The notes below the pieces were generated by a model. It was not told where the DNA came from, did no database searches, and saw only the letters and a program-made list of their open reading frames with translations. Below, piece by piece: positions 1-6,806 of a DNA stretch of 6,806 bases (position 1 is its first letter; each line of letters starts with the position of its first letter). The position numbers and the translations under genes were made by a program. Source of the DNA: Bacillus salipaludis (GTDB lineage Bacteria > Bacillota > Bacilli > Bacillales_B > DSM-18226); assembly GCF_004358205.1 (NCBI RefSeq), contig NZ_SMYO01000054.1:1-6806 (forward strand), in the 5' to 3' direction.

Positions 1-144
1 GGCTTTCGGCCCGCCACCTAACTGTCTACGCTTAAAGACTAAAGTTACCTTTAGCCCTCCAAGACTCGCTACGAGCGAATGGCTAGTTCTTACTCGACGG
101 GAATCCCACCCGTTATATGATACGACCTAGGCTCGGCCGCACAC
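1..144 (-). mobile_element. Group II intron, 5' end (continues off the left edge)
   Basis: Read on the minus strand, this segment begins at 144 with GTGTGCGGCC, which fits the conserved group II intron 5' end (GUGYG). It continues as a highly structured, non-coding, GC-richer sequence: a GGGTGGGATTCCC hairpin at about 101-115, followed by ACTAGCC and further stem-loops, as expected for domain I. No protein reading frame is evident. The rest of the intron, with any reverse transcriptase ORF and domains V/VI, would lie left of the window. The boundary falls inside a copy of the dispersed palindrome, so the left arm of that copy is missing here. Intron identity rests on the 5' motif and recalled similarity to bacterial introns. 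I cannot assign the class with confidence. Confidence 0.7.
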
Positions 145-170
145 CTGCTTCGTTAGTTCAACAAGAAAAA
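145..170 (+). repeat. Dispersed palindrome, copy A (right half, cut by intron)
   Basis: This has the loop and right arm of the dispersed element (CTGCTTCG, then TTAGTTCAACAAGAAAAA). The left arm is absent because the group II intron starts at 144. On the minus strand the copy follows the terminator at 190-215. Confidence 0.75.
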
Positions 171-189
171 GGTAATATAATAATAGGAA

Positions 190-215
190 AAGCCCTTCTC
201 AGTCGAGAGGGGCTT
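190..215 (-). terminator. Intrinsic terminator of the frameshifted gene at 247-674
   Basis: On the minus strand AAGCCCCTCTC pairs with GAGAAGGGCTT (one mismatch, 4-nt loop GACT), followed by TTTTCC. It lies about 30 bp after the stop codon at 247. Palindrome copy A follows it. Confidence 0.75.
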
Positions 216-246
216 CTAATTTTGGTAAAAAGAAAACACTTAAGAA

Positions 247-674
247 TTAATTAACTGGTATCATTTGTCCATTGTCATCTTCACGAACCTCAATTACATC
301 TCCAATTTTTACGTTGATATTCTTTGAAGTTAGATACATAGCATCGTCAGTTTGAAAAAATATGGATAGGTCATTATTAACTCCACCGCTATCATCCCAA
401 TATACTGGATTCCCATCTTCTGTCTCTCCATATATTCCAGTTATTATTGTTGTATCTGGAGTGTCACATGTACCACCCAAAATAGTAGGACAATCCCCAT
501 TATCAGTAATAGAATCTATTTTTCCTCTTATAATTACATCTGTATGGAAGTGTTCAATAGTGACCTTTTAAAATAGAATTCTCCCTCACCAGAAAACTCA
601 GTGTAATTAAAAGAATTATAAATAAAGGCAATAGCAACTAAAATCGATACTTGGATATTATTTAAGGAAAGCAC
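247..674 (-). pseudogene. Frameshifted small secreted or membrane-anchored protein, family unknown
   Basis: Two minus-strand frames join into one protein. The upstream frame reads NIQVSILVAIAFIYNSF, a hydrophobic segment suited to a signal or anchor helix, then NYTEFSGEGEFYFK. It then runs off frame. The downstream frame continues KVTIEHFHTDVIIRGKIDSI, then an acidic, threonine-rich stretch with CPTILGGTC (a cysteine pair), and ends KIGDVIEVREDDNGQMIPVN at 247. Adding one A to the A run at 566-569 fuses the frames without a stop. The downstream frame alone has no convincing start; its first candidate is a TTG at 480 without a ribosome site. The upstream frame opens after a stop, with GTG at 672-674 as a possible but poorly supported start. 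I do not recognise the family. An extracytoplasmic beta-rich domain is an inference. A sequencing error would make this an intact gene of about 140 residues. Confidence 0.65.
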
Positions 675-762
675 CCTTTACTTTAAGTACAGGACTTCAC
701 AATCTTTTTTTACACCTCATTAAACTCAATCCTTAAATGTGTTGTACATGCAAAATGACGCC

Positions 763-801
763 TTCTTATTTAAGAAAAGCGCCCGACTGTTGAACAATGA
801 A
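763..801 (+). repeat. Dispersed palindrome, copy B (diverged)
   Basis: This copy has the same 39-bp length as the best copies and aligns without gaps. The left arm is TTCTTATTTAA, the centre GCGCCCG and the right arm TGTTGAACAATGAA. It sits between the DinB-like gene and the frameshifted gene to its left, in the same orientation as the other copies. Confidence 0.5.
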
Positions 802-836
802 ATATGCGAAAGATTGCTCTGCAAATACGTTTTAAT

Positions 837-960
837 TTATTTGACATACACCCGTTTAGCCATCCATAAAGCAGGAAAATCACCCGCTTCACCATAGAGA
901 ATGAAAAGGGCTTCACACCCTCAATACTGCTTTTACGGCTGGGCGAGGAACGTCGCTGAA
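837..960 (-). pseudogene. Possible gene remnant (two-frame coding trace)
   Basis: Just downstream of the DinB-like gene, minus-strand translation gives FSDVPRPAVKAVLR and then, in another frame, CEALFILYGEAGDFPALW followed by MAKRVYVK and a stop at 837. Removing one G from the GGG at 918-920 joins them. The amino-acid content looks protein-like and the local GC matches the DinB-like gene, so this may be the tail of a decayed gene that travelled with it. There is no start codon or ribosome site. I do not recognise the family and the call could be chance. Confidence 0.25.
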
Positions 961-970
961 TTATGGTGCT

Positions 971-1468
971 TTAGGACCAATCCACGCCACCCCAAGAGGA
1001 TTGCAACTTTCGCAACAGAACAATTTGGCCGAGATGATACGTATCGTGCATCATGATATTGCTGAGTAAACGCTCAATAGAGTACCTGTTAGCTGCATAC
1101 GGAGATTTTAACTTTTCATCGTCAAGGTCCGCAATGACCGTTTTTAATTTATTCATGACTTCATTAAGGTGCTGCACTGTCTGGGCCCACCCAATTTCGT
1201 CTTCTGGATCCCCCGGATTTCCAAAGGTTTCTTCATTGTCTTCTGCCTTATGCGGATTCTCTGTGCCCTTAATTCGATGGATTACGTCTTCATTCCAAAA
1301 TATCAAGTGGTTGACAATCTGCCAAATCGAATTGCTGATTCCCGAACTTGTCCATGCTGCCTCAGCTGCGATGACTCCATGAAGCGCCTGATTTATGGAT
1401 GCAAACCACTCATTCTCATAGCAATGCATGTCGAGTTGTTCTAAAAACATTTTGGCTATAACTTGCAT
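971..1468 (-). CDS. DinB/YfiT-like four-helix metal-binding protein
   Basis: The 165-residue product has the length and features of the DinB/YfiT superfamily, a four-helix bundle that binds a divalent metal through three histidines. His54 (in IVNHLIFW), His141 and His145 (in MHDTYHLGQI) form the expected triad, and the HxxxH near the C terminus is the family hallmark. Members include metal-dependent thiol transferases (bacillithiol or mycothiol) and many of unknown function; no substrate can be read from this sequence. ATG at 1468 is supported by GAGGAGA at about 1477-1483. There is no signal peptide or membrane segment, so it should be cytoplasmic. The gene stands alone between palindrome copies B and C. 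Its GC content (40-48% in the lines counted) exceeds that of neighbouring genes (about 30-37%), suggesting a different origin. Family membership is secure, function is not. Confidence 0.88.
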   Translation of the reverse strand: MQVIAKMFLEQLDMHCYENEWFASINQALHGVIAAEAAWTSSGISNSIWQIVNHLIFWNEDVIHRIKGTENPHKAEDNEETFGNPGDPEDEIGWAQTVQHLNEVMNKLKTVIADLDDEKLKSPYAANRYSIERLLSNIMMHDTYHLGQIVLLRKLQSSWGGVDWS

Positions 1469-1487
1469 AAAATCAATCTCCTCACTG

Positions 1488-1717
1488 TATAGTGTAATCC
1501 TTCAAAGTTAAAAGTGATGGCATAAAATTACCTTCATTTTCGACTGTCGGGCATATAACGAAAAAAACTACTCTCAATGAAATACTCCAATCATTTATTT
1601 TGAGAGTACAAAAAAACAAGATCACTATGATTTATTCGACTCATCCAGTTTTTATTCCTTCATCATGACAAATAAGATACCCCTTGAGGTTATTAGACAA
1701 AAGCCTCTCTTCAACCA
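1488..1717. other. Gene-free stretch upstream of the DinB-like gene
   Basis: No reading frame with a plausible start and ribosome site is visible on either strand. It holds the 5' flank of the DinB-like gene and the 1569-1608 hairpin. The longest ATG frame I noticed, about 25 codons on the minus strand near 1717, has no Shine-Dalgarno sequence. Confidence 0.5.
1569..1608 (-). terminator. Stem-loop followed by a T tract, possibly an orphan terminator
   Basis: TACTCTCAA (1569-1577) pairs perfectly with TTGAGAGTA (1600-1608), and the loop contains a second small stem (ATGA with TCAT). On the minus strand the hairpin is followed by GTTTTTTT, as in a terminator, but no gene to its right reads into it. 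It may be left from a lost gene or limit read-through into the DinB-like gene. Confidence 0.4.
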
Positions 1718-1758
1718 TTCTTTATTTAACTAAACTGCATCCGTTAGTCGAATAAGAA
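1718..1758 (+). repeat. Dispersed palindrome, copy C
   Basis: A 41-bp copy with left arm TTCTTTATTTAACTAA, loop ACTGCATCCG and right arm TTAGTCGAATAAGAA. The arms pair with few mismatches. It is followed by TCTCCTAATGGAAGAA, the same small hairpin motif that follows copy I. It separates the DinB-like gene from the zinc-ribbon gene. Confidence 0.8.
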
Positions 1759-1787
1759 AAAGCGATCTCCTAATGGAAGAATTTCTG

Positions 1788-1817
1788 TTTACACTAAAGG
1801 TAATTCCCAATTATACT
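1788..1817 (+). promoter_or_regulatory. Sigma-A-like promoter of the zinc-ribbon gene
   Basis: TTTACA (1788-1793) and TATACT (1812-1817) are separated by 18 bp, about 31 bp ahead of the ATG at 1849. The promoter lies inside the interval, just after copy C, so the gene carries its own expression signals. Confidence 0.65.
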
Positions 1818-1848
1818 AAATTTTAATTCGTTTATAAGGAGATTTATA

Positions 1849-2238
1849 ATGAGAACCTCTATCCCTTGTCCTAATTGTGAAAAAGCAATAACGCTTGATG
1901 ATTTTGAGGAATTTTCATCACCATTTACAATGAAATGTCCTTACTGCAAAGCTAAACTAAAAGAAACTAAAGTAACACCATTTCTTCTGATCGGTTTGAT
2001 AGTAATAATTCCATTATTTATTTACTTAACAGAGACATTAATATCTTTGCTTTCAGGCATTATTCCTCCTATTGAAAAAATACCATCAATCATAGTATTT
2101 ATAGGTCTGCTATATCCTTTATATGCCCTATATGAGCGAATTAATGGACTTATTATGTTTAATAAAGGCAATTTACAATTAAAAAAAGACAATGATATGC
2201 GTGGTATTCTCACGCTTTTTTGTATTAATAATAGATAA
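1849..2238 (+). CDS. Zinc-ribbon membrane protein; C-terminal end probably frameshifted
   Basis: The 129-residue product begins with a zinc-ribbon-like module: CPNC (Cys7, Cys10) and CPYC (Cys30, Cys33), a four-cysteine site for structural zinc. Two hydrophobic segments follow (about residues 45-70 and 79-95), giving a small membrane protein with a cytoplasmic N-terminal ribbon. ATG at 1849 has AAGGAG at 1836-1841, 7 nt upstream. The frame runs through a terminator hairpin at 2199-2221, and the last 16 residues (DNDMRGILTLFCINNR) are encoded by that hairpin and its T tract. Adding one A to the seven-A run at 2181-2187 would end the protein at KKRQ with TGA at 2193-2195, just before the hairpin, which is more natural. 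It is one of few plus-strand genes here. I do not recognise a specific family or role. Confidence 0.75.
   Translation: MRTSIPCPNCEKAITLDDFEEFSSPFTMKCPYCKAKLKETKVTPFLLIGLIVIIPLFIYLTETLISLLSGIIPPIEKIPSIIVFIGLLYPLYALYERINGLIMFNKGNLQLKKDNDMRGILTLFCINNR
2199..2221 (+). terminator. Intrinsic terminator of the zinc-ribbon gene
   Basis: GCGTG (2199-2203) pairs with CACGC (2211-2215) across a 7-nt loop, followed by TTTTTT. It overlaps the 3' end of the reading frame, which is part of the case for a frameshift there. Confidence 0.7.
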
Positions 2239-2249
2239 TTTATTGAACC

Positions 2250-2289
2250 CTGTTGTTCAACAAACCTGCCCCCATTAGTGCAATAAAAA
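2250..2289 (+). repeat. Dispersed palindrome, copy D
   Basis: A 40-bp copy with left part TGTTGTTCAACAAA, loop CCTGCCCCCA and right part TTAGTGCAATAAAAA. The right arm has drifted from perfect pairing. The hairpin that follows at 2290-2310 is almost identical to the one after copy G. Confidence 0.75.
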
Positions 2290-2310
2290 AAGCTGCCACA
2301 ATGACAGCTT
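2290..2310 (-). terminator. Terminator hairpin joined to palindrome copy D
   Basis: AAGCTG (2290-2295) pairs with CAGCTT (2305-2310). On the minus strand it is followed by TTTTTTT, so it ends transcription of the gene at 2393-2892. The 21-nt hairpin differs by one base from that at 3312-3332. Confidence 0.75.
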
Positions 2311-2343
2311 AATTAATCTACTTTGTTGGTGAAAAAGCGACTG

Positions 2344-2382
2344 CACTTAATGAACAATAGCCCCTGTTTGTTTAATAGCGAA
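2344..2382 (+). repeat. Dispersed palindrome, copy E (degenerate)
   Basis: ACTTAATGAACAATA, then GCCCCTG, then TTTGTTTAATAGC align to the element with one or two gaps and in the same orientation. It lies between the stop codon of the frameshifted gene at 2393 and the hairpin of copy D, so two copies are almost in tandem. It is the weakest of the copies listed. Confidence 0.35.
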
Positions 2383-2392
2383 CATAATCATT

Positions 2393-2892
2393 TTAAACAT
2401 ATGTGTACGTGTATTGTGGTTCTTCATTCTTATTAATACATATCTCATTTTCATCTAAACCGTTACATACTGCAAAATAACCTTCTTCAAGGTGAAAACC
2501 CATTCCAGTTAATTGTGCTATCCATTCAATAATTTCGACTATAACTATTCGTTGTTAATACATTTATTAAGTTCCTTTAACTTATTCTTTTCCCATCTAA
2601 TTACCAAATCTGTACCATAATAATCAATCTCATCGGATAAATCAATTTGATCAAATGTAACAGCGTATTCATTAGTTTTATAAGCACATAATTCTAATTG
2701 ACAATCTTCAAACCTTATTATTACGGGTAAATCATTAAACCACTCATCTTCATTTTGTTCCCACGCAACCCAAATCTCCTCTATTTGCTTCCCTTTAAGA
2801 CCCTGTAACCTTGTTTTATGGTCATTTATTATTTGAGATAGTTCGGTATAAATTTTAGGATTGTAATTTTTTATTCCTAACCTAAATATCAC
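2393..2892 (-). pseudogene. Frameshifted cytoplasmic protein of unknown function
   Basis: The first minus-strand frame gives 115 residues with KGKQIEEIWVAWEQNEDEWF, PVIIRFEDCQLELCAYKT and EIDYYGTDLVIRWEKNKL, ending NKCINNE at a TAG (2545-2547). In another frame the sequence at once continues VIVEIIEWIAQLTGMGF, HLEEGYFAVCNGLDENEI and EEPQYTYTYV, stopping at 2393. Restoring one A in GAATAG (2546-2550), to read GAAATAG, joins them as ...NNEIVIVEIIEW..., a protein of about 166 residues. I recall similar uncharacterised Bacillus proteins combining a W-x-x-W region with a GY(F/I)A..NGLDEN tail, but I cannot name the family. Only a GTG at 2892 fits as a start. AGAGGTG overlaps it, while the in-frame AGG at 2881-2883 sits about 8 nt from that site, so an original ATG may also be lost. 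No signal peptide is seen. Confidence 0.7.
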
Positions 2893-2928
2893 CTCTTATT
2901 CGAGTTGCAATAATAATGATTTTACCAT

Positions 2929-2967
2929 TTCTTGTTCAACTAAACTGTCCAGTTAGCTTAACTAGAA
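2929..2967 (+). repeat. Dispersed palindrome, copy F
   Basis: One of the best copies at 39 bp: left arm TTCTTGTTCAACTAA, loop ACTGTCCAG, right arm TTAGCTTAACTAGAA. It separates the frameshifted gene at 2393-2892 from the microprotein gene at 3028-3201. Confidence 0.85.
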
Positions 2968-2987
2968 AAAAGACCGCCGCAGCGATC
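2966..2987 (-). terminator. Intrinsic terminator of the 57-aa gene
   Basis: On the minus strand GATCGC (2987-2982) pairs with GCGGTC (2977-2972) around TGCG, with one G-U pair, followed by TTTTTTC. It lies about 40 bp after the stop at 3028 and runs directly into palindrome copy F. Confidence 0.75.
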
Positions 2988-3027
2988 ACCGTTTTCAACT
3001 CAAGCCCCCTTGAATAACAACACAAAG

Positions 3028-3201
3028 TTATTTCACATTTTCATCTAAATCTTTAAGTTGGTTTTTTATTTCTTTAAGTTCGGACCTTAAAGCCTTAACT
3101 TGCTTAGAATTATCAATACCAATACTAACTGCATATACAAATATAAGAAATAGAACGACTAAACCAACAAATCCGTAAAATAATGTTAAAATGACCCCCA
3201 C
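3028..3201 (-). CDS. 57-aa single-pass membrane protein with a coiled-coil tail
   Basis: This short gene is easily missed. The product reads (M)GVILTLFYGFVGLVVLF, then LIFVYAVSIGI as the rest of one transmembrane helix (about residues 3-28), and then a charged helix. In the helix, V35, L38, L42, I45, L49 and L52 follow a 3-4 heptad spacing, predicting a short cytoplasmic coiled coil ending DLDENVK. A GTG start at 3199-3201 is the best available, with AAGGGG about 10 nt upstream. No ATG gives a longer frame. It fills the whole interval between copies F and G and has its own terminator. Two tandem TAAAACGG octamers (3244-3259) lie upstream and could be regulatory. The role is unknown. Phage-like or toxin-like microproteins can look similar, but nothing specific supports that. 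Confidence 0.65.
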   Translation of the reverse strand: MGVILTLFYGFVGLVVLFLIFVYAVSIGIDNSKQVKALRSELKEIKNQLKDLDENVK

Positions 3202-3274
3202 AACTTTGTCGCCCCTTATAAATAAACTACTTTAACATTACCATAAAACGGTAAAACGGGGGACGTTTATTTTT

Positions 3275-3311
3275 TTCTTCTTAAAAAATCCTTCCGTAAG
3301 TGCAATAAGAA
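3275..3311 (+). repeat. Dispersed palindrome, copy G (diverged left arm)
   Basis: The left part TTCTTCTTAAAAAA has drifted. The right part CCGTAAGTGCAATAAGAA is well conserved and resembles that of copy D. It is followed by the near-identical hairpin shared with copy D. Confidence 0.65.
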
Positions 3312-3332
3312 AAGCTGCCAAAATGACAGCTT
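3312..3332 (-). terminator. Terminator hairpin joined to palindrome copy G
   Basis: AAGCTG (3312-3317) pairs with CAGCTT (3327-3332). The minus strand then reads TTTTCTTATT. It serves the small membrane-protein gene ending at 3377. One base differs from the hairpin at 2290-2310. Confidence 0.7.
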
Positions 3333-3376
3333 GGTTCTGTAACTCTTGAACCCGTTAATTGAAGTAGGGTTATATG

Positions 3377-3604
3377 TTATCCCCATATTAGACCAATTAG
3401 ACAAATAAATGTAATCCCACTAGCTACAAAGAGAAAAGTTCCTATTCCTTTTCTTTTTATTCTTATAAAAAGAACTCCTAATATAATAAGCATACATCCT
3501 GATAAAAACTCAGTATACGGAATAACCCTGAAATTGTGTGAAATTGCAGTATAAATTGTTAGAATAATAATTATTCCAGCAAGGTAAAACCCCAATTTAA
3601 CCAT
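3377..3604 (-). CDS. Small three-helix membrane protein, DUF3953/YczI-like
   Basis: From ATG at 3602-3604 the product has 75 residues. Three hydrophobic helices cover about residues 5-21, 33-48 and 56-74, with a basic loop RIKRKG between the second and third. The layout and the phrase YTEFLSGCMLIILGV resemble small Bacillus membrane proteins of the DUF3953/YczI kind; this is from recall and should be checked by profile search. An ATG five codons upstream (3617-3619) is in frame, but the GGGGGA site at about 3610-3615 overlaps that start and is correctly spaced for 3604. A TATAAT about 25 nt upstream of the start could be the -10 of its own promoter, though no good -35 is seen. It is the only gene between copies G and H. 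Biochemical role unknown. Confidence 0.72.
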   Translation of the reverse strand: MVKLGFYLAGIIIILTIYTAISHNFRVIPYTEFLSGCMLIILGVLFIRIKRKGIGTFLFVASGITFICLIGLIWG

Positions 3605-3717
3605 TCCATTCCCCCACATTACTCATTATAATACCAAATCAATTACAGCATTTAAATTTATGTTTTTTTGAAAATTTTAATGTCATAAAAATGCACAAAT
3701 TTCTTGTTTCTTCCTAA

Positions 3718-3756
3718 TTCTTGTTAAATTAACCTGCCCCGTTAGCTGAATAAGAA
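3718..3756 (+). repeat. Dispersed palindrome, copy H
   Basis: A 39-bp copy with left arm TTCTTGTTAAATTAA, loop CCTGCCCCG and right arm TTAGCTGAATAAGAA. The open frame of the acetyltransferase starts inside the right arm, after the TGA at 3747-3749. Confidence 0.85.
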
Positions 3757-3791
3757 ATAAATACGAAGAAATCTGTGTATCTTTTAAAACG

Positions 3792-4229
3792 ATGAAAGAT
3801 TTCCCTGGTGATGAAAACTTTGAGATGATATGTGAGTTACTCAGGTCGTTAGCGAAGGACGTTCCTGTTTCATATGGTAAAGGAGCTAAAATGGAAAAGG
3901 AAATTGCAGCATCTATACTAAAGTCGAACCTACCAGAAAATGTGATGCTTGCTGAAGTGGATAATCGTCTAGTAGGCATTTCAATTGCAAATGAAAGAGT
4001 TAAGGGTATAGAAATGTACAATTCTTTCACTGGTACAATGGAAGAAATGCGTGGTAAGGGAATCGCTTTTGGTTTGAAATTACAAGTCATTAAAAATAAT
4101 ATAAAACACGGATACTCTCGAATGAGAGCCAATAATTCATCTATCAATCAACCAATGTTAGCTATTAATGAAAAACTAGGGTTTGTAAGACAACCAGGAA
4201 AATGGATTTTAACAAAATCTCTCGACTAA
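3792..4229 (+). CDS. GNAT-family N-acetyltransferase, probably 5'-truncated
   Basis: The 145-residue product carries the C-terminal GNAT core. VMLAEVDNRLVGIS (51-64) forms strands 2-3. FTGTMEEMRGKGIAFGL (79-95) is strand 4 plus the acetyl-CoA pyrophosphate loop (R87-GKG-IA). NNSSINQPMLAINEKLGF (114-131) is the conserved final alpha/beta segment. The acceptor substrate cannot be predicted. Family members with this tail are, as I recall, often about 280-300 residues with two GNAT-like halves, so this is only the second half. ATG at 3792 has no Shine-Dalgarno site. The frame is open back to 3750 (IRNKYEEICVSFKT), starting inside palindrome copy H, as if the 5' part were cut at the repeat. The only good ribosome site (AAAGGAG at 3879-3885) precedes an in-frame ATG at 3891, which would give a shorter 112-residue protein. 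No promoter is evident, but a strong terminator follows. Confidence 0.75.
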   Translation: MKDFPGDENFEMICELLRSLAKDVPVSYGKGAKMEKEIAASILKSNLPENVMLAEVDNRLVGISIANERVKGIEMYNSFTGTMEEMRGKGIAFGLKLQVIKNNIKHGYSRMRANNSSINQPMLAINEKLGFVRQPGKWILTKSLD

Positions 4230-4254
4230 AATTCATCTTTTTAAAATATCTGTT

Positions 4255-4285
4255 AAAAGGGTAACTTAAACGTTACCCTTTTTTT
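4255..4285 (+). terminator. Strong intrinsic terminator of the acetyltransferase gene
   Basis: AAAAGGGTAAC pairs perfectly with GTTACCCTTTT across a 6-nt loop, continuing into a run of seven T. It lies 25 bp after the stop codon and is the strongest terminator in the window. Confidence 0.92.
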
Positions 4286-4402
4286 GCTTTTGGTTTGTTC
4301 AATTTGAACATCTCTTTTCATCCGAACCTGTTATAAACTGATGATCCTTTTTGTATTCTTATTATGCTAACCTCCCTTATAAAAGGATTGCAGCACTATA
4401 CC
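4286..4402. other. Gene-free stretch with a perfect inverted repeat and a possible gene-start relic
   Basis: TGTTCAA and TTGAACA flank a single T at 4296-4310. The half-site TGTTCAA recurs in the MarR promoter at 6491-6497, but the dispersed palindrome also contains GTTCAA, so this could be either an operator or a repeat fragment. On the minus strand AAGGGAGG (about 4373-4380) looks like a ribosome site, followed by ATAATAAGAATACAAAAA but no ATG and only about 16 sense codons. This could be the start of a lost gene. No intact gene is present. Confidence 0.35.
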
Positions 4403-4438
4403 TTCTTTACCTCTAGCACCTAGTTAGTTGAACAAATA
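4403..4438 (+). repeat. Dispersed palindrome, copy I (diverged left arm)
   Basis: The right part TAGTTAGTTGAACAAA is conserved. The left part TTCTTTACCTCTAGCACC is drifted and a few bases short. The hairpin after it shares TCTCCTTATGGAAGAA with the one after copy C. It separates the acetyltransferase from the SDR gene. Confidence 0.65.
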
Positions 4439-4444
4439 TATGAA

Positions 4445-4472
4445 AGGTTCTCCTTATGGAAGAACCTCTTTT
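4445..4472. terminator. Terminator hairpin joined to palindrome copy I
   Basis: AGGTTCT (4445-4451) pairs with AGAACCT (4461-4467), with an inner CC/GG pair around TTAT. The plus strand continues CTTTTT, the minus strand TTTCAT. It lies about 100 bp after the SDR stop codon and could end that transcript, although the better T tract is on the plus strand. Confidence 0.6.
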
Positions 4473-4568
4473 TAATAGGATATTACAATTAGCAAGGAAC
4501 TTTTTAATTTACGTAAAATTATAAGGTTAATATCCCAGAAATTTTAGAATCTCGATGATAAATCAACC

Positions 4569-5339
4569 TTATTCGCTTCTCATTCTTACTGCATAAGGAT
4601 AAATTGGATCTTTTAATTGAAATTCATAAGTAAGACCATCTACAATTCCAACTACTTTTTCGCTATCGTAAAGATCAAGCATAAATCCAGCCATTTCTTT
4701 GGCAGTATGGTATTTTGGAAGAAGTCCTTCAAACTTAACATTTTCTTCTAAGTCATTCGATACTTTTGCAAATTCAGTTTCAGTTGCAGCAGGAGCCAAT
4801 AGTTTTGCTTGCATGCTTGCACCTTTTTCTTTTAATTCATGTGCAAGCCCTTCAGTAAAGGCACTTACATAGAATTTAGAAGCACAGTATGTGATTGCAT
4901 TTCCAATAATCGTATAACCCCCACCTGATGAAACGTTAATTATTTGTGTTCCCTCAACTGATGAATAGTCACGCACATAAAGAGAAGTTAAAATAGTTAA
5001 AGCCTCGATATTTAAATTAAGCATTGTCTCAATTTTAGTTAAATTTTGATCGCCAACCGATGCAAAATTACCAAATCCTGCGTTATTAATCCACGTTTCA
5101 ATTTCATATCCCTTTAAATCTTCATATAATGTATAAGCATTTTTCATATTCGATAAATCAACTGTTTTAATAACGACATCTAATGCTGCATTTACTTTCA
5201 CGATCTCTGTTTTAAGTTTTTCAAGCTCCTCAGTTCTACGTGCCACAATGACTAAATTTTTACCGCGAGCAGCAAAAGCAAGAGCTGTTTCATAGCCAAT
5301 ACCAGAACTTGCACCTGTAATAACTGTATATTTTTTCAT
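4569..5339 (-). CDS. Short-chain dehydrogenase/reductase (SDR), NADPH-type
   Basis: A complete 256-residue classical SDR. TGASSGIG (8-15) is the Rossmann dinucleotide loop. Arg34-Arg35 after the second strand favours NADP(H) over NAD(H). Asp61 is the adenine-pocket aspartate. NNAG is at 85-88. The catalytic set Asn110, Ser138, Tyr151 and Lys155 (YCASK) is all present with standard spacing. It should catalyse reversible NAD(P)-dependent carbonyl/alcohol conversion in the cytoplasm. The substrate is unknown, and the family is too broad to infer one. ATG at 5337-5339 has AGGAGGC at 5346-5352, 6-7 nt away. It is divergent from a MerR gene, and its promoter (5401-5431) has MerR-type architecture, so it is probably activated by that regulator in response to a small molecule, perhaps a reactive carbonyl. 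No frameshift or missing residue is seen. Confidence 0.93.
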   Translation of the reverse strand: MKKYTVITGASSGIGYETALAFAARGKNLVIVARRTEELEKLKTEIVKVNAALDVVIKTVDLSNMKNAYTLYEDLKGYEIETWINNAGFGNFASVGDQNLTKIETMLNLNIEALTILTSLYVRDYSSVEGTQIINVSSGGGYTIIGNAITYCASKFYVSAFTEGLAHELKEKGASMQAKLLAPAATETEFAKVSNDLEENVKFEGLLPKYHTAKEMAGFMLDLYDSEKVVGIVDGLTYEFQLKDPIYPYAVRMRSE

Positions 5340-5356
5340 TTTATTGCCTCCTAATA

Positions 5357-5375
5357 TTTTGTTATACTAACAAAA
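5357..5375. repeat. Perfect inverted repeat in the SDR leader
   Basis: TTTTGTTA (5357-5364) and TAACAAAA (5368-5375) form an 8-bp stem with a 3-nt centre, just upstream of the SDR ribosome site. It could be a second operator or a small RNA hairpin in the 5' leader. It has no T tract of terminator type. Confidence 0.5.
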
Positions 5376-5400
5376 ATTGATTGTTAACTTTTACAGATTT

Positions 5401-5431
5401 ATTATAGTGCTTAGAGTAAACTCTAAGTCAA
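5401..5431 (-). promoter_or_regulatory. MerR-type promoter and operator of the SDR gene
   Basis: On the minus strand TTGACT (5431-5426) and TATAAT (5406-5401) are near-consensus -35 and -10 boxes separated by 19 bp (5407-5425). MerR-family activators act on such over-long spacers by untwisting the DNA. A perfect 18-bp palindrome, CTTAGAG-N4-CTCTAAG with a symmetrical centre (5410-5427), overlaps the spacer and -35 box. It resembles the operators I recall for AdhR/NmlR-like regulators. The transcript would have a leader of about 55 nt. The same site could control the divergent merR gene. Confidence 0.88.
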
Positions 5432-5478
5432 ACCTATTTTTTACACTTGATTAGCATTGGTTAAAAATGGAGGGTTTT

Positions 5479-5859
5479 ATGTATACAATTGGCGAAGTGG
5501 CACAACTAGTAGGCGTTAGCACACATACATTACGTTACTATGAAAAAGAGAATATCATTCTTCCAGATCGGAATGAAAATGGAGAAAGAAAATATACTGA
5601 ATCGCATCTTCAATGGCTAAAATTTGTTTTAAAATTAAAAGAGACGCAAATGCCAATCACAAAAATCAAAGAGTATGCCTTCTTGTATACTGAAGGAGAA
5701 CATACAGCAATTAATCGATTAAAACTATTAGAAGATCATAAAAGTTCCATCGAAAACCAGTTAGAGATACTGAAAGAAACGAATAAAATGTTAGAACATA
5801 AAATTACTTTATATAAAGAAATGATTTTGAAAAGAAATGGAGTAGATACAAAAGCATAA
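5479..5859 (+). CDS. MerR-family transcriptional regulator
   Basis: From ATG at 5479 the product has 126 residues. YTIGEVAQLVGVSTHTLRYY (2-21) is the MerR winged helix-turn-helix. The wing continues with NGERKYTE, and a long C-terminal helix (about residues 77-115, L/I-rich with heptad spacing) suits the antiparallel dimer coiled coil. ATG at 5467 is in frame but overlaps the GGAGGG ribosome site (5469-5474), so 5479 is chosen; it also gives the canonical MYTIGEVA start. There is no cysteine anywhere, so metal-thiolate sensing as in MerR/CueR, or single-cysteine carbonyl sensing as reported for AdhR, is not possible by that route. The short C-terminal part leaves no large ligand domain. It is divergent from the SDR gene, with the operator between them. 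It probably activates the SDR gene and may regulate itself. Confidence 0.93.
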   Translation: MYTIGEVAQLVGVSTHTLRYYEKENIILPDRNENGERKYTESHLQWLKFVLKLKETQMPITKIKEYAFLYTEGEHTAINRLKLLEDHKSSIENQLEILKETNKMLEHKITLYKEMILKRNGVDTKA

Positions 5860-5895
5860 TATTATATTTGGATTAATAACGTAAAAACATAATAA

Positions 5896-5936
5896 AAGGA
5901 ACGAACGTATTAGATGAACATATACGTGCGTTCCTT
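5896..5936. terminator. Bidirectional terminator between merR and marR genes
   Basis: AAGGAACGAACGTAT (5896-5910) pairs with ATACGTGCGTTCCTT (5922-5936) with one mismatch and an 11-nt loop. On the minus strand it is followed by TTATTATG and a later T run. On the plus strand no strong T tract follows. It lies between two convergent genes and probably serves both. Confidence 0.7.
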
Positions 5937-5940
5937 AAAT

Positions 5941-5982
5941 TACTTGTTATTGAGCTAAAGCTACCCGATAGTTGAAGAACAA
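5941..5982 (+). repeat. Dispersed palindrome, copy J (diverged)
   Basis: CTTGTTATTGAGCTAAA, centre GCTACCCG and right arm ATAGTTGAAGAACAA. It has the expected position and orientation, immediately 3' of the MarR gene, but it lies between the stop codon and the terminator rather than after the terminator as elsewhere. Confidence 0.55.
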
Positions 5983-5988
5983 TTGGTA

Positions 5989-6453
5989 TTAATAGCCACT
6001 TTGGATTAAATTATTTAATAGTTCTTTTTGAATACGAAGTAAAGATTGAATATCCTCATCATCCATATTTTCTAATGCAGAAAGCATAGCTTTATAAGAT
6101 ATTGAATTCTTACTTGAGTTCTTAGATACTTCTTCCCCTTTGATTGTTAGCTTTAACTTTACTTCTCTTCGGTCTTCATCAGAAAATTTTCTTTCAACCA
6201 AACCCATATTAACTAATTTATCAACCCCAACACTAATCGTACTCTTAGATGAAATAAGCCTTTCAACCAACTCTTGCTGTGTTGATTCTGGAAATGCAAA
6301 CAATGTATTTAGTATTGATAATTGTTGTAATGTAAGCCCAAAACTTTCTGCATTCGTTTTTGTAAATTTAGCTGTGGTTTTGTTAATTGCCCATAATGAT
6401 TGATAAACCTCCTGTACTTGTTTAACTTTTGGGTCTTTGAAATTCAAATCCAT
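5989..6453 (-). CDS. MarR-family transcriptional regulator
   Basis: From ATG at 6451-6453 the product has 154 residues, typical for MarR. Helices at about 10-35 and 120-150 would form the dimer interface. Residues 41-103 form the winged helix-turn-helix, with STQQELVERLISSKSTISVG as helix-turn-helix and SDEDRREVKLKLT as the wing carrying the conserved D-x-R-R motif (Asp94-Arg95-Arg96). It has no cysteine, so OhrR/MgrA-type thiol oxidation sensing is excluded. A GTG three codons upstream (6462) overlaps the AGGAGT ribosome site (6461-6466), so the ATG is preferred. The gene stands alone between copies J and K. The transporter or enzyme often found beside MarR genes is absent, possibly because of the adjoining intron. 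The promoter and a palindrome at the start of transcription suggest autorepression. Confidence 0.92.
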   Translation of the reverse strand: MDLNFKDPKVKQVQEVYQSLWAINKTTAKFTKTNAESFGLTLQQLSILNTLFAFPESTQQELVERLISSKSTISVGVDKLVNMGLVERKFSDEDRREVKLKLTIKGEEVSKNSSKNSISYKAMLSALENMDDEDIQSLLRIQKELLNNLIQSGY

Positions 6454-6470
6454 TGTTATCACTCCTAAGT

Positions 6471-6505
6471 AAACTGGTTCAAAAACAAACTGTTCAACTA
6501 TGAAC
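6471..6505. promoter_or_regulatory. Candidate MarR operator cluster
   Basis: GTTCA-ACTA-TGAAC (6492-6505) is an inverted repeat just downstream of the -10 box. AAACTGGTTCAA (6471-6482) and AAACTGTTCAA (6487-6497) form a direct repeat 16 bp apart, overlapping it. The placement between -10 box and ribosome site suits autorepression by MarR. The sites are inferred from symmetry only. Confidence 0.5.
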
Positions 6506-6506
6506 T

Positions 6507-6535
6507 ATTTTACATAAGAAAATGGCAATAAACAA
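6507..6535 (-). promoter_or_regulatory. Promoter of the marR-type gene
   Basis: On the minus strand TTGTTT (6535-6530) and TAAAAT (6512-6507) are separated by 17 bp. The leader to the ATG would be about 45-50 nt. The promoter lies between palindrome copy K and the gene, so the gene does not depend on read-through. Confidence 0.65.
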
Positions 6536-6536
6536 T

Positions 6537-6570
6537 CACTTATTCATTAACCTGCCTCGTTTGCACAATA
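6537..6570 (+). repeat. Dispersed palindrome, copy K (right end cut by intron)
   Basis: CACTTATTCATTAA, loop CCTGCCTCG and right part TTTGCACAATA. The remaining bases expected after AATA in other copies (AGAAAAA and a hairpin) are replaced by the 3' end of the group II intron. Confidence 0.7.
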
Positions 6571-6637
6571 GAGTAGGAGGGGAAATTTAATCCCCGACCT
6601 CTCACACCACCGTACGTACGGTTCCGTATACGGCGGT
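6571..6637 (-). ncRNA. Group IIC intron domains V and VI
   Basis: Domain V (6637-6606, minus strand) folds as ACCGCCGTA with TACGGTGGT, a 2-nt CG bulge, and an upper stem TACG/CGTA closed by a GAAC loop. The lower stem contains CGC, the triad variant known for class C in place of AGC. It is followed by GTGAGAGG and domain VI, with GGGGA and TCCCC arms around an AT-rich loop, then CTACTC with a candidate branch-point A. All elements look intact. Confidence 0.85.
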
Positions 6638-6806
6638 TCAATCTTTTAAGTATCGTACGGCAAGTTTGATTGCCTGGTGGGCATTCTTGCCTTTACGAAA
6701 ACCAAAGCTATTCTCAGAGAAGTATGGATCTATGATTGGTTCAATTACTTGGAGAATGGCTTGTTGTACCACTCTATCCAATACACATGGTATTCCTAGA
6801 TATCTT
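6638..6806 (-). pseudogene. ltrA: Group II intron reverse transcriptase/maturase, truncated after RT motif 2
   Basis: The visible 55 residues read RYLGIPCVLDRVVQQAI, then EPIIDPYFSENSFGFRKG and NAHQAIKLAVRYLKD, which correspond to RT motifs 1-2 of intron-encoded proteins. The frame then stops at TGA (6640-6638), directly at the base of domain V. A full protein of this family has about 400 or more residues. The missing part includes the YADD catalytic motif (RT5), the rest of the palm and thumb, and the maturase X domain. The abrupt jump to domain V indicates an internal deletion. The product cannot reverse transcribe or act as a normal maturase, so any splicing or movement would need a full-length protein supplied in trans. 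The start lies right of the window. Confidence 0.88.

Follow-up and report, generated by a model that had tools for sequence, protein, structure and literature searches.

Structure of the analyzed region

We analyzed a stretch of 6,806 bp from Bacillus salipaludis (contig NZ_SMYO01000054.1, positions 1 to 6,806), here referred to as the window, in which short genes lie between imperfect palindromes of about 38 bp. Comparison with related genomes suggests that the palindromes probably belong to a gene-cassette system of the Bacillota, which would work like an integron and would be built on double-stranded dif- or lox-like sites and a Xer-like recombinase.

About 14 copies of the dyad were found in the window, every one on the plus strand. 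The initial annotation had listed some eleven palindromes in a single orientation. Their existence and orientation were confirmed by the covariance model and the weight matrices, but the count had to be raised to about 14 by the copies at 655, 2988 and 3332, and two types of site had to be distinguished. Each site consists of two inverted arms of about 13 bp, which flank an asymmetric centre of 7-8 bp. Type A reads AACTAA-CCTGCCCC-GTTAGTT (full consensus TTCTTATTNAACTAA-CCTGCCCC-GTTAGTTNAATAAGAA) and type B reads AACTAA-AGCACCC-GTTAGTT (full consensus ATCTTCAACTAA-AGCACCC-GTTAGTTTAAGAA). A and B sites are often paired about 60 bp apart with a terminator-like hairpin between them; three such pairs were present in the window (2247/2344, 2926/2988 and 3271/3332). 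The features of the window are as follows (position, strand, description; matrix scores in bits).

1 to 142, minus: group II intron 5' end, junction within a putative recombination site (Rfam RF02005, 66 bits over 1-106; junction read from the sequence)
143 to 172, plus: right half of an A site, left half displaced by the intron (matrix 25.4 over 126-172)
247 to 480, minus: open reading frame (ORF) of 77 aa, no Pfam match
655 to 691, plus: B site (matrix 26.9)
763 to 799, plus: B site (matrix 26.0; covariance model 38.5 bits)
971 to 1468, minus: DinB_2 family gene (Pfam PF12867, 1.1e-14)
1716 to 1762, plus: A site with an extra base in the left arm (covariance model 45.1 bits; matrix 6.9)
1849 to 2238, plus: ORF of 129 aa, no Pfam family; CxxC pairs and hydrophobic segments by eye
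2247 to 2293, plus: A site of an A-hairpin-B pair (matrix 22.2; covariance model 38.9)
2289 to 2312, no strand: terminator-like hairpin AAGCTGCC...GACAGCTT between A and B (from the sequence; aligned and folded)
2344 to 2380, plus: B site, partner of the A site at 2247 (matrix 22.9; covariance model 32.6)
2545 to 2892, minus: ORF of 115 aa, no Pfam match
2926 to 2972, plus: A site of a pair (matrix 40.2; covariance model 43.1)
2988 to 3024, plus: weak B site (matrix 14.0)
3028 to 3201, minus: ORF of 57 aa
3271 to 3316, plus: degenerate A site of a pair (covariance model 32.5)
3332 to 3368, plus: B site (matrix 21.5)
3377 to 3619, minus: ORF of 80 aa, hydrophobic by eye
3715 to 3761, plus: A site, best copy (matrix 50.9; covariance model 45.3)
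3792 to 4229, plus: GNAT-like acetyltransferase of 145 aa (Pfam PF00583, E 8.6e-4, 20 bits, just below the cut-off of 20.7)
4397 to 4443, plus: site scoring 13.7 as A and 13.4 as B (covariance model 32.7)
4569 to 5339, minus: SDR oxidoreductase (Pfam PF00106, 1.9e-32; 98% identity to Bacillaceae proteins)
5467 to 5859, plus: MerR-family regulator, divergent from the SDR gene (Pfam PF13411)
5941 to 5987, plus: site scoring 24.3 as A and 9.2 as B (covariance model 42.5)
5989 to 6462, minus: MarR-family regulator (Pfam PF12802)
6533 to 6567, plus: A site adjoining the second intron end (matrix 18.6 over 6533-6579)
6568 to 6638, minus: group II intron 3' end, domains V-VI (Rfam RF00029, 49.7 bits)

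The covariance model (R1) was built from nine window copies and by construction recovered this training set on the plus strand, with weaker palindromic echoes on the minus strand. Weight matrices for A and B were trained on relatives, and the training loci included the copies of the window itself. All matrix calls were on the plus strand, starting at 126, 1716, 2247, 2926, 3715, 4397, 5941 and 6533 for A and at 655, 763, 2344, 2988 and 3332 for B. The degenerate A site at 3271 was detected by the covariance model only, the site at 1716 scored low in the ungapped matrix (6.9 bits) owing to its one extra base, and the assignment of the site at 4397 was ambiguous.

In 200 shuffles of the window the best score of matrix A had a mean of -6.3, a 95% value of 1.5 and a maximum of 12.7, and that of matrix B 3.0, 8.4 and 14.6, respectively. 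For the weakest copies (1716, 2988 and 4397) the score was only slightly above the shuffle maximum or below it. Since some weak copies cannot stand alone against shuffles, the case rests on the relatives. A search of the window alone for CTGCCCCGTTAG with three mismatches gave four matches against 1.57 expected, which was not significant (at least four matches in 20 of 200 shuffles), and single copies folded no better than shuffles (11 stretches, z -1.69 to 0.51).

The initial gene list was broadly right. Among the ten ORFs of the window, five had Pfam matches (DinB_2, SDR, MerR, MarR and, just under the cut-off, GNAT) and five had none. As the initial annotation had stated, a recombinase ORF was absent from the window, both from the ORF list and from the Pfam search. 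The window proteins gave no convincing match to a defence family, with one MerR and several winged-helix matches only. At the DNA level, positions 2412-2929 shared 80% identity with the Niallia taxi plasmid pMEGANia. We rejected this match as a transferred cassette and did not use it as evidence for transfer: matrix A gave no call in the 30-kb Niallia locus, where the covariance matches were all weak, and the homology ended about 15 bp short of the A centre. Among the matches listed in a megablast of the whole window against plasmids there were only the intron ends and one gene.

Distribution and orientation of the sites in relatives

An exact-pattern scan of genome contigs returned at least 119 stretches from Viridibacillus, Sporosarcina, Paenisporosarcina, Psychrobacillus, Solibacillus, Lysinibacillus, Ureibacillus, Peribacillus, Neobacillus, Bacillus and other genera. 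Arrays were present in relatives from the Bacillaceae and Planococcaceae, on both plasmids and chromosomes. The matrix scan, which covered the loci that had also served as the matrix training set, detected 583 A sites, of which 574 had the majority orientation of their locus; the reversed-sequence control gave 0. Leaving aside 15 loci with a single site, 559 of 568 A sites shared the orientation of their locus and a minority site occurred in 8 of 107 loci.

The main ORF (at least 60 aa) was identified in 398 of 464 A-to-A intervals. In 346 of these 398 it was read against the site strand, so that the site follows the gene, with a median distance of 119 bp from the stop codon to the A centre. 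The A-B intervals (n = 446) had a median length of 60 bp. In several loci of Viridibacillus and Sporosarcina (L006, L009, L012, L013, L023 and L054; L and G numbers denote our loci and genomes) a cccgattgttgaac-like repeated motif was located directly left of A sites.

On pSHB26, a 176-kb plasmid of Peribacillus simplex, all A calls between 170.4 kb and about 41 kb, across the origin, were on a single strand, and this run sets in 21 bp behind a tyrosine recombinase gene. In the same stretch, two B calls were on the opposite strand. Three IS110-family transposase genes of this plasmid (L136; at about 3.6, 27.1 and 34.5 kb) were found within about 140 bp of low-scoring A sites; IS110-family elements are known to target attC in integrons.

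The initial annotation had raised the question whether the copies are confined to one locus. They are not: chromosomes bear many site clusters, with an orientation that follows the replichore. In G085, G106 and G181, whose first contigs span about the whole genome, 128 of 131 matches (E<=0.01; hand count) were on the minus strand before and on the plus strand after a single switch point, located at 1.79-2.11 of 3.63 Mb, 1.76-2.07 of 4.28 Mb and 1.90-2.15 of 4.11 Mb, respectively. The exceptions were two matches in G085 and one in G106. In the complete chromosome of Sporosarcina thermotolerans, 14 matches (E<=0.01) agreed with the same rule and one exception was found among the weaker matches. 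The sign of the GC skew was as expected at all eight loci tested. This orientation over megabases (G085, G106, G181 and G009) could be caused by selection on gene direction or by a property of the recombination. Sites or an intron-site junction were also present in records labelled Arthrobacter (L106 and plasmid CP053689.1), which could reflect transfer to Actinobacteria or mislabelling.

Movement of intervals between unrelated surroundings

The comparison of site-to-site intervals covered 1.35 Mb in 140 loci, which together contain 741 A and 700 B sites. Loci overlapping others (e.g. L136 and L171-L175) were excluded from both interval comparisons. Among intervals of 250 bp or more, 64 pairs were homologous over their full length, and in 54 of them both flanks were unrelated, i.e. 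without an alignment of more than 110 bp. These 54 pairs belonged to 29 mobile interval families, of which 23 extended across genomes and six paired copies within one genome only. One of the 29 families was the interval holding a group II intron, present twice in pSHB26.

A stricter comparison from A to A, in which unrelated flanks had no alignment of more than 50 bp, resulted in 13 pairs. Both flanks were unrelated in seven, six of them between genomes, and the alignments of the A-to-A pairs ended 0-4 bp from the centre of the site. Examples were Viridibacillus arvi and Solibacillus with 96% and Viridibacillus arenosi and Paenisporosarcina indica with 88% identity. Furthermore, a 2.1-kb block of several intervals common to two Viridibacillus species starts and stops in A sites.

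For homologous blocks 250 bp or longer we also mapped the internal ends (n = 510). This comparison included L190-L201, L208 and L209, recombinase loci in which A sites are scarce or missing. In both partners, 90 ends lay within 20 bp of an A site and 84 within the same distance of a B site, and another 89 lay near a site in one partner only. On the query side, 24.7% of the ends were near an A site compared with 2.8% of random positions.

Exchange points within the sites

Pairs of A sites that share only their right side matched in the variable bases of the right arm (excess 0.79 at +15 and 0.68 at +18) and did not match in the left arm (-0.01 at -7 and +0.11 at -10). Pairs sharing only the left side showed the reverse pattern (57 right-sharing and 29 left-sharing pairs). 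No such pair was found among 654 random control windows, which were drawn from the same loci and covered A only. B sites showed the same switch between the arms (23 and 60 pairs). The exchange point indicated by these comparisons is the centre of A and of B. Whole-cassette transfer is apparent from the A-to-A and the 64-pair interval comparisons.

The switch in the centre speaks against an element that moves with both of its arms, and likewise against homologous recombination at points scattered over the repeat. This bears on a simpler explanation, in which a dispersed palindrome or a small transposable A-hairpin-B element inserts behind genes and the genes move by homologous recombination. 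The many clusters per chromosome and the constant length of A-hairpin-B, as seen in the 446 A-B intervals, would fit such an element. However, such an element should take its left arm along in full when it jumps, whereas of the two arms of A the right one goes with the element and the left one with the adjacent DNA. Complete gene intervals were found again, with precise ends, in surroundings that are otherwise unrelated. Homologous recombination would scatter the breakpoints along about 110 bp. We therefore consider this explanation very unlikely. The initial annotation had described an ordinary dispersed repeat as copies scattered over the genome in both orientations and without exchange of units between strains. 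The scattering and both absolute orientations were indeed found, but the orientation is not random with respect to the replichore and movement of units was seen.

The freely variable positions of the A arms showed no covariation (-7/+15, z 0.5; -10/+18, z 1.4), and a mild excess of covariation was found for the near-constant pairs -8/+16 (z 5.5) and -3/+11 (z 4.7). Given this lack of covariation at the variable positions, the symmetry resembles that of a dyad bound by protein rather than that of a selected hairpin. Pairing between A and B gave no consistent signal in the covariation analysis. Folding of nine A-hairpin-B composites in the manner of attC gave mixed results, as some were well below shuffles and some were not; the former can be attributed to the terminator and the two dyads.

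The sites are also targeted by group II introns. The 5' junctions lay at the same point of the A or B centre in 12 distinct copies, obtained from 15 rows after removal of three that were seen twice in overlapping loci. These insertions were located at positions 1-142 of the window and in L002, L003, L021, L121, L135-L138 and L183, and one of them had a degenerate arm. In the window, the copy at 126-172 is a half site split by such an intron and a second intron end adjoins the copy at 6533. The group II intron is probably a site-specific parasite of the cassette sites. Group II introns have reportedly been found in linkage with integrons.

A recombinase family located among the sites

The plasmid pSHB26 encodes a Xer-like tyrosine recombinase of 279 aa (P0002), whose family lies among the sites, mostly between A and B. 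Its Phage_integrase domain (PF00589, E 3.6e-39) contains the residues R-K-H-R-H-Y. These are R138, K162, H228, R231, H254 and Y263, which were invariant in 23 aligned family sequences and which we take, from the motifs of tyrosine recombinases, to be the catalytic residues. P0002 stayed below the NCBIfam cut-offs of XerD (203 of 330 bits), XerC (200 of 335 bits) and XerA (201 of 220 bits). The closest sequences were E. coli XerD (1a0p) and an archaeal Xer protein (4a8e), and the closest fold was XerA (5hxy). The AlphaFold model (mean pLDDT 79.8, pTM 0.59, weak C-terminus) serves only to confirm the Xer/integrase fold.

Full-length family members were 60-71% identical to each other and about 30% identical to chromosomal Xer-like proteins of the same genomes. 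They formed a separate clade with 100/100 support in a tree that carries long-branch warnings and in which the rows taken as XerC and XerD were picked by ORF and motif, not by name. All 22 carriers of sites (21 genomes and one plasmid) had some match, Xer proteins included. Counting about 50% identity or more as family, 17 of the 22 carried the recombinase, unbroken over its full length in 10 and in pieces in 7.

We analyzed 24 recombinase loci, representing 23 distinct copies as two loci overlap. In 11 of the 24, sites in the same direction were present on both sides of the gene, at no more than 340 bp on the upstream and 130 bp on the downstream side. A site was found upstream only in 6 (three of them near a contig end), downstream only in 4 and on neither side in 3. 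In the usual layout an A site is located about 108 bp before the start of the recombinase and a B site about 35 bp after its stop, and this interval from A to B with the recombinase gene is the largest mobile family, present in 8 loci of 7 genomes. A further recombinase of pSHB26 (recombinase 1, 283 aa) was set aside as partner of the sites, as it lies beside apparent rRNA and is 24% identical to P0002. By eye, the end of an apparent 23S rRNA gene and a 5S rRNA gene are located just before it (L135:40400-41015).

The distribution of the family was studied in 200 genomes of the order, with E<=1e-60 defining a copy and with strict site filters, so that site counts are lower bounds. The recombinase was present in 20 of 33 genomes with at least three sites and in 26 of 167 others (p 3e-7). 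When genomes with any site were compared with those lacking sites, the counts were 27 of 60 and 19 of 140 (p 5e-6); both p values are uncorrected for kinship.

A true but divergent integron was considered as an alternative, in which A-hairpin-B would be an attC composed of two simple sites (105-140 bp) and folded as a single strand for a relative of IntI. The size of the composite falls within the 57-141 bp given for attC, which likewise has two simple sites, in passages of PMC3053210. The order of gene and site as well as the group II introns inserted in the sites are also in agreement with an integron. However, P0002 reached 95 bits with the integron integrase model TIGR02249 (cut-off 265), compared with 200-203 bits for the Xer models, and no integron integrase over the TIGR02249 cut-off was found in 12 replicons or genomes searched (10 genomes, among which drafts may be incomplete, and two plasmids). 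Moreover, exchange occurs in the A and B centres alike, the freely variable arm positions show no covariation and A-B cross-pairing no consistent signal, as described above, and an attI-like platform was not recognised, the recombinase being flanked by array sites in the 11 loci mentioned (at the tested distances). A divergent integron thus appears quite unlikely. The initial annotation had considered an integron-like or otherwise recombination-driven cassette system in a Gram-positive. Its second part is borne out by the orientation, the movement of intervals and the recombinase in the arrays. The integron family is not supported, given a Xer-like recombinase far under the integron-integrase cut-off and exchange at the centres of about 38-bp dyads of two types; classical integron membership is not shown.

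Proposed mechanism

The sites, their orientation, the site-bounded intervals in unrelated surroundings, the exchange points in the centre and the recombinase among the sites are all read from sequence data. Based on these we propose that each palindrome is a double-stranded recombination site and that the dedicated Xer-like recombinase of 279 aa would act on these sites, pairing two like sites and swapping strands in the centre. As the centre is asymmetric, productive events would keep the sites head to tail, and an array would grow and shrink by insertion and excision at like sites, presumably through a circular intermediate. We infer a compatibility rule by which A recombines with A and B with B, so that a stretch from A to B could be swapped through one exchange at each end. 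A cassette would comprise a gene and the site behind it, in many cases together with a terminator of the gene's own, and the recombinase gene itself would be one of the exchanged stretches.

The initial annotation had proposed to look in relatives for a uniform orientation, for movement of units from repeat to repeat and for a tyrosine or serine recombinase. The first was found within the multi-site loci (559 of 568 A sites), the second as exact transfer of intervals between genomes and the third as a tyrosine recombinase inside the arrays.

Several observations weigh against the proposed cassette system. Recombination is read from sequence only, the activity of the recombinase being deduced. 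Of the 510 ends of homologous blocks, almost half (247) were not located at a recognised site. The exchange-point pairs share sites and are not independent. As the right-hand windows of A and the left-hand windows of B overlap the A-hairpin-B element, the pairs concerned are by themselves no proof that complete cassettes were transferred. A-B pairs recur at constant spacing, and the retention of both types is unexplained by the model. The window itself is an array segment without a recombinase. In pSHB26 and L140, unlike the other loci, the recombinase runs opposite to the neighbouring sites. It was also present in 26 genomes with fewer than three recognised sites. The recombinases of L190-L201, L208 and L209, from genomes with few or no A sites, are 60-65% identical to P0002, and 5 of these 14 loci contained a motif centred on GGG(C/T)CAG, which might mark an additional type of site. 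The family may thus serve other site types, or something else. Conversely, 13 of the 33 site-rich genomes had no recombinase copy at E<=1e-60, and 8 of these 13 showed only short stretches with 54-83% identity, some of about 30 residues. Such pieces suggest that arrays may outlive their recombinase.

These 13 genomes, together with the three recombinase loci without a nearby site, would also be expected if the arrays were pdif-like modules recombined by the host XerC/XerD and the P0002 family were mere cargo. The layout of a dyad with a short centre is that of Xer sites as well. On the other hand, the near-symmetric arms suit a single recombinase, a site was located near the recombinase in 21 of 24 loci, and the pieces in 8 of the 13 genomes point to a former copy. 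The uniform orientation found here differs from that of Xer modules, which are mostly flanked by oppositely oriented sites according to passages of PMC7399989. We regard the pdif-like explanation as quite unlikely, and a cassette system with its own recombinase as the preferred one.

If real, a cassette system with tens of sites per genome would be a gene-capture route of the Bacillota's own. A separate cassette system would explain many small genes of unknown function in Firmicutes, and it would supply a double-stranded comparison for the evolution of cassette arrays as well as new pairs of recombinase and site. Whether it is an independently evolved cassette platform, widespread in Bacillaceae and Planococcaceae and characterized by natural A/B exchange, a recombinase riding along without a fixed platform and fork-oriented arrays, seems to us evenly balanced. 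In the open-licence literature of PubMed Central (subscription journals and preprints being outside its scope) no description of this system was found.

Comparison with known systems

The arrays resemble integrons, which have been described chiefly in Gram-negative bacteria, in their rows of single-gene cassettes, the site 3' of the gene, the uniform orientation and the exact movement of cassettes, and furthermore in arrays without an intact recombinase (CALIN) and in group II introns inserted in the sites. They differ by a Xer-like recombinase under the IntI cut-off, by dyads of about 38 bp and of two types, by a recombinase exchanged as a cassette and by many clusters per chromosome. A fixed intI-attI platform was not recognised; attI is poorly conserved. 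The initial annotation had pointed to a formal fit with the attC core-site patterns RYYYAAC and GTTRRRY. The CTAAC and GTTAG cores of the sites do resemble these patterns, but the fit takes in freely varying positions of the arms. According to passages of PMC9024848, Firmicutes very rarely contain integrons, with one complete integron (Limnochorda pilosa) and a few CALIN found by IntegronFinder 2.0.

The Xer modules of Acinetobacter (pdif, Re27) likewise carry genes bounded by short Xer-like sites and are thought to be mobile as modules, as described in parts of PMC7399989. There the mostly opposite-oriented sites are ascribed to host XerC/XerD, whereas the arrays analyzed here are uniform in orientation, contain dozens of sites and have a recombinase family of their own. 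XerC/XerD and XerA provide the nearest sequences and structures to P0002, which nevertheless stays under their NCBIfam cut-offs and forms its separate clade.

Cassette exchange in the laboratory uses two incompatible lox or FRT sites. As in that technique, two site types with differing centres would make the intervening DNA swappable; the A/B arrangement, however, would be a natural one, and the incompatibility of A and B is suggested by their differing centres only. Taken together, recombination of the Xer or lox type, acting on double-stranded sites, comes closest in mechanism, and the nearest modular arrays are those of pdif.

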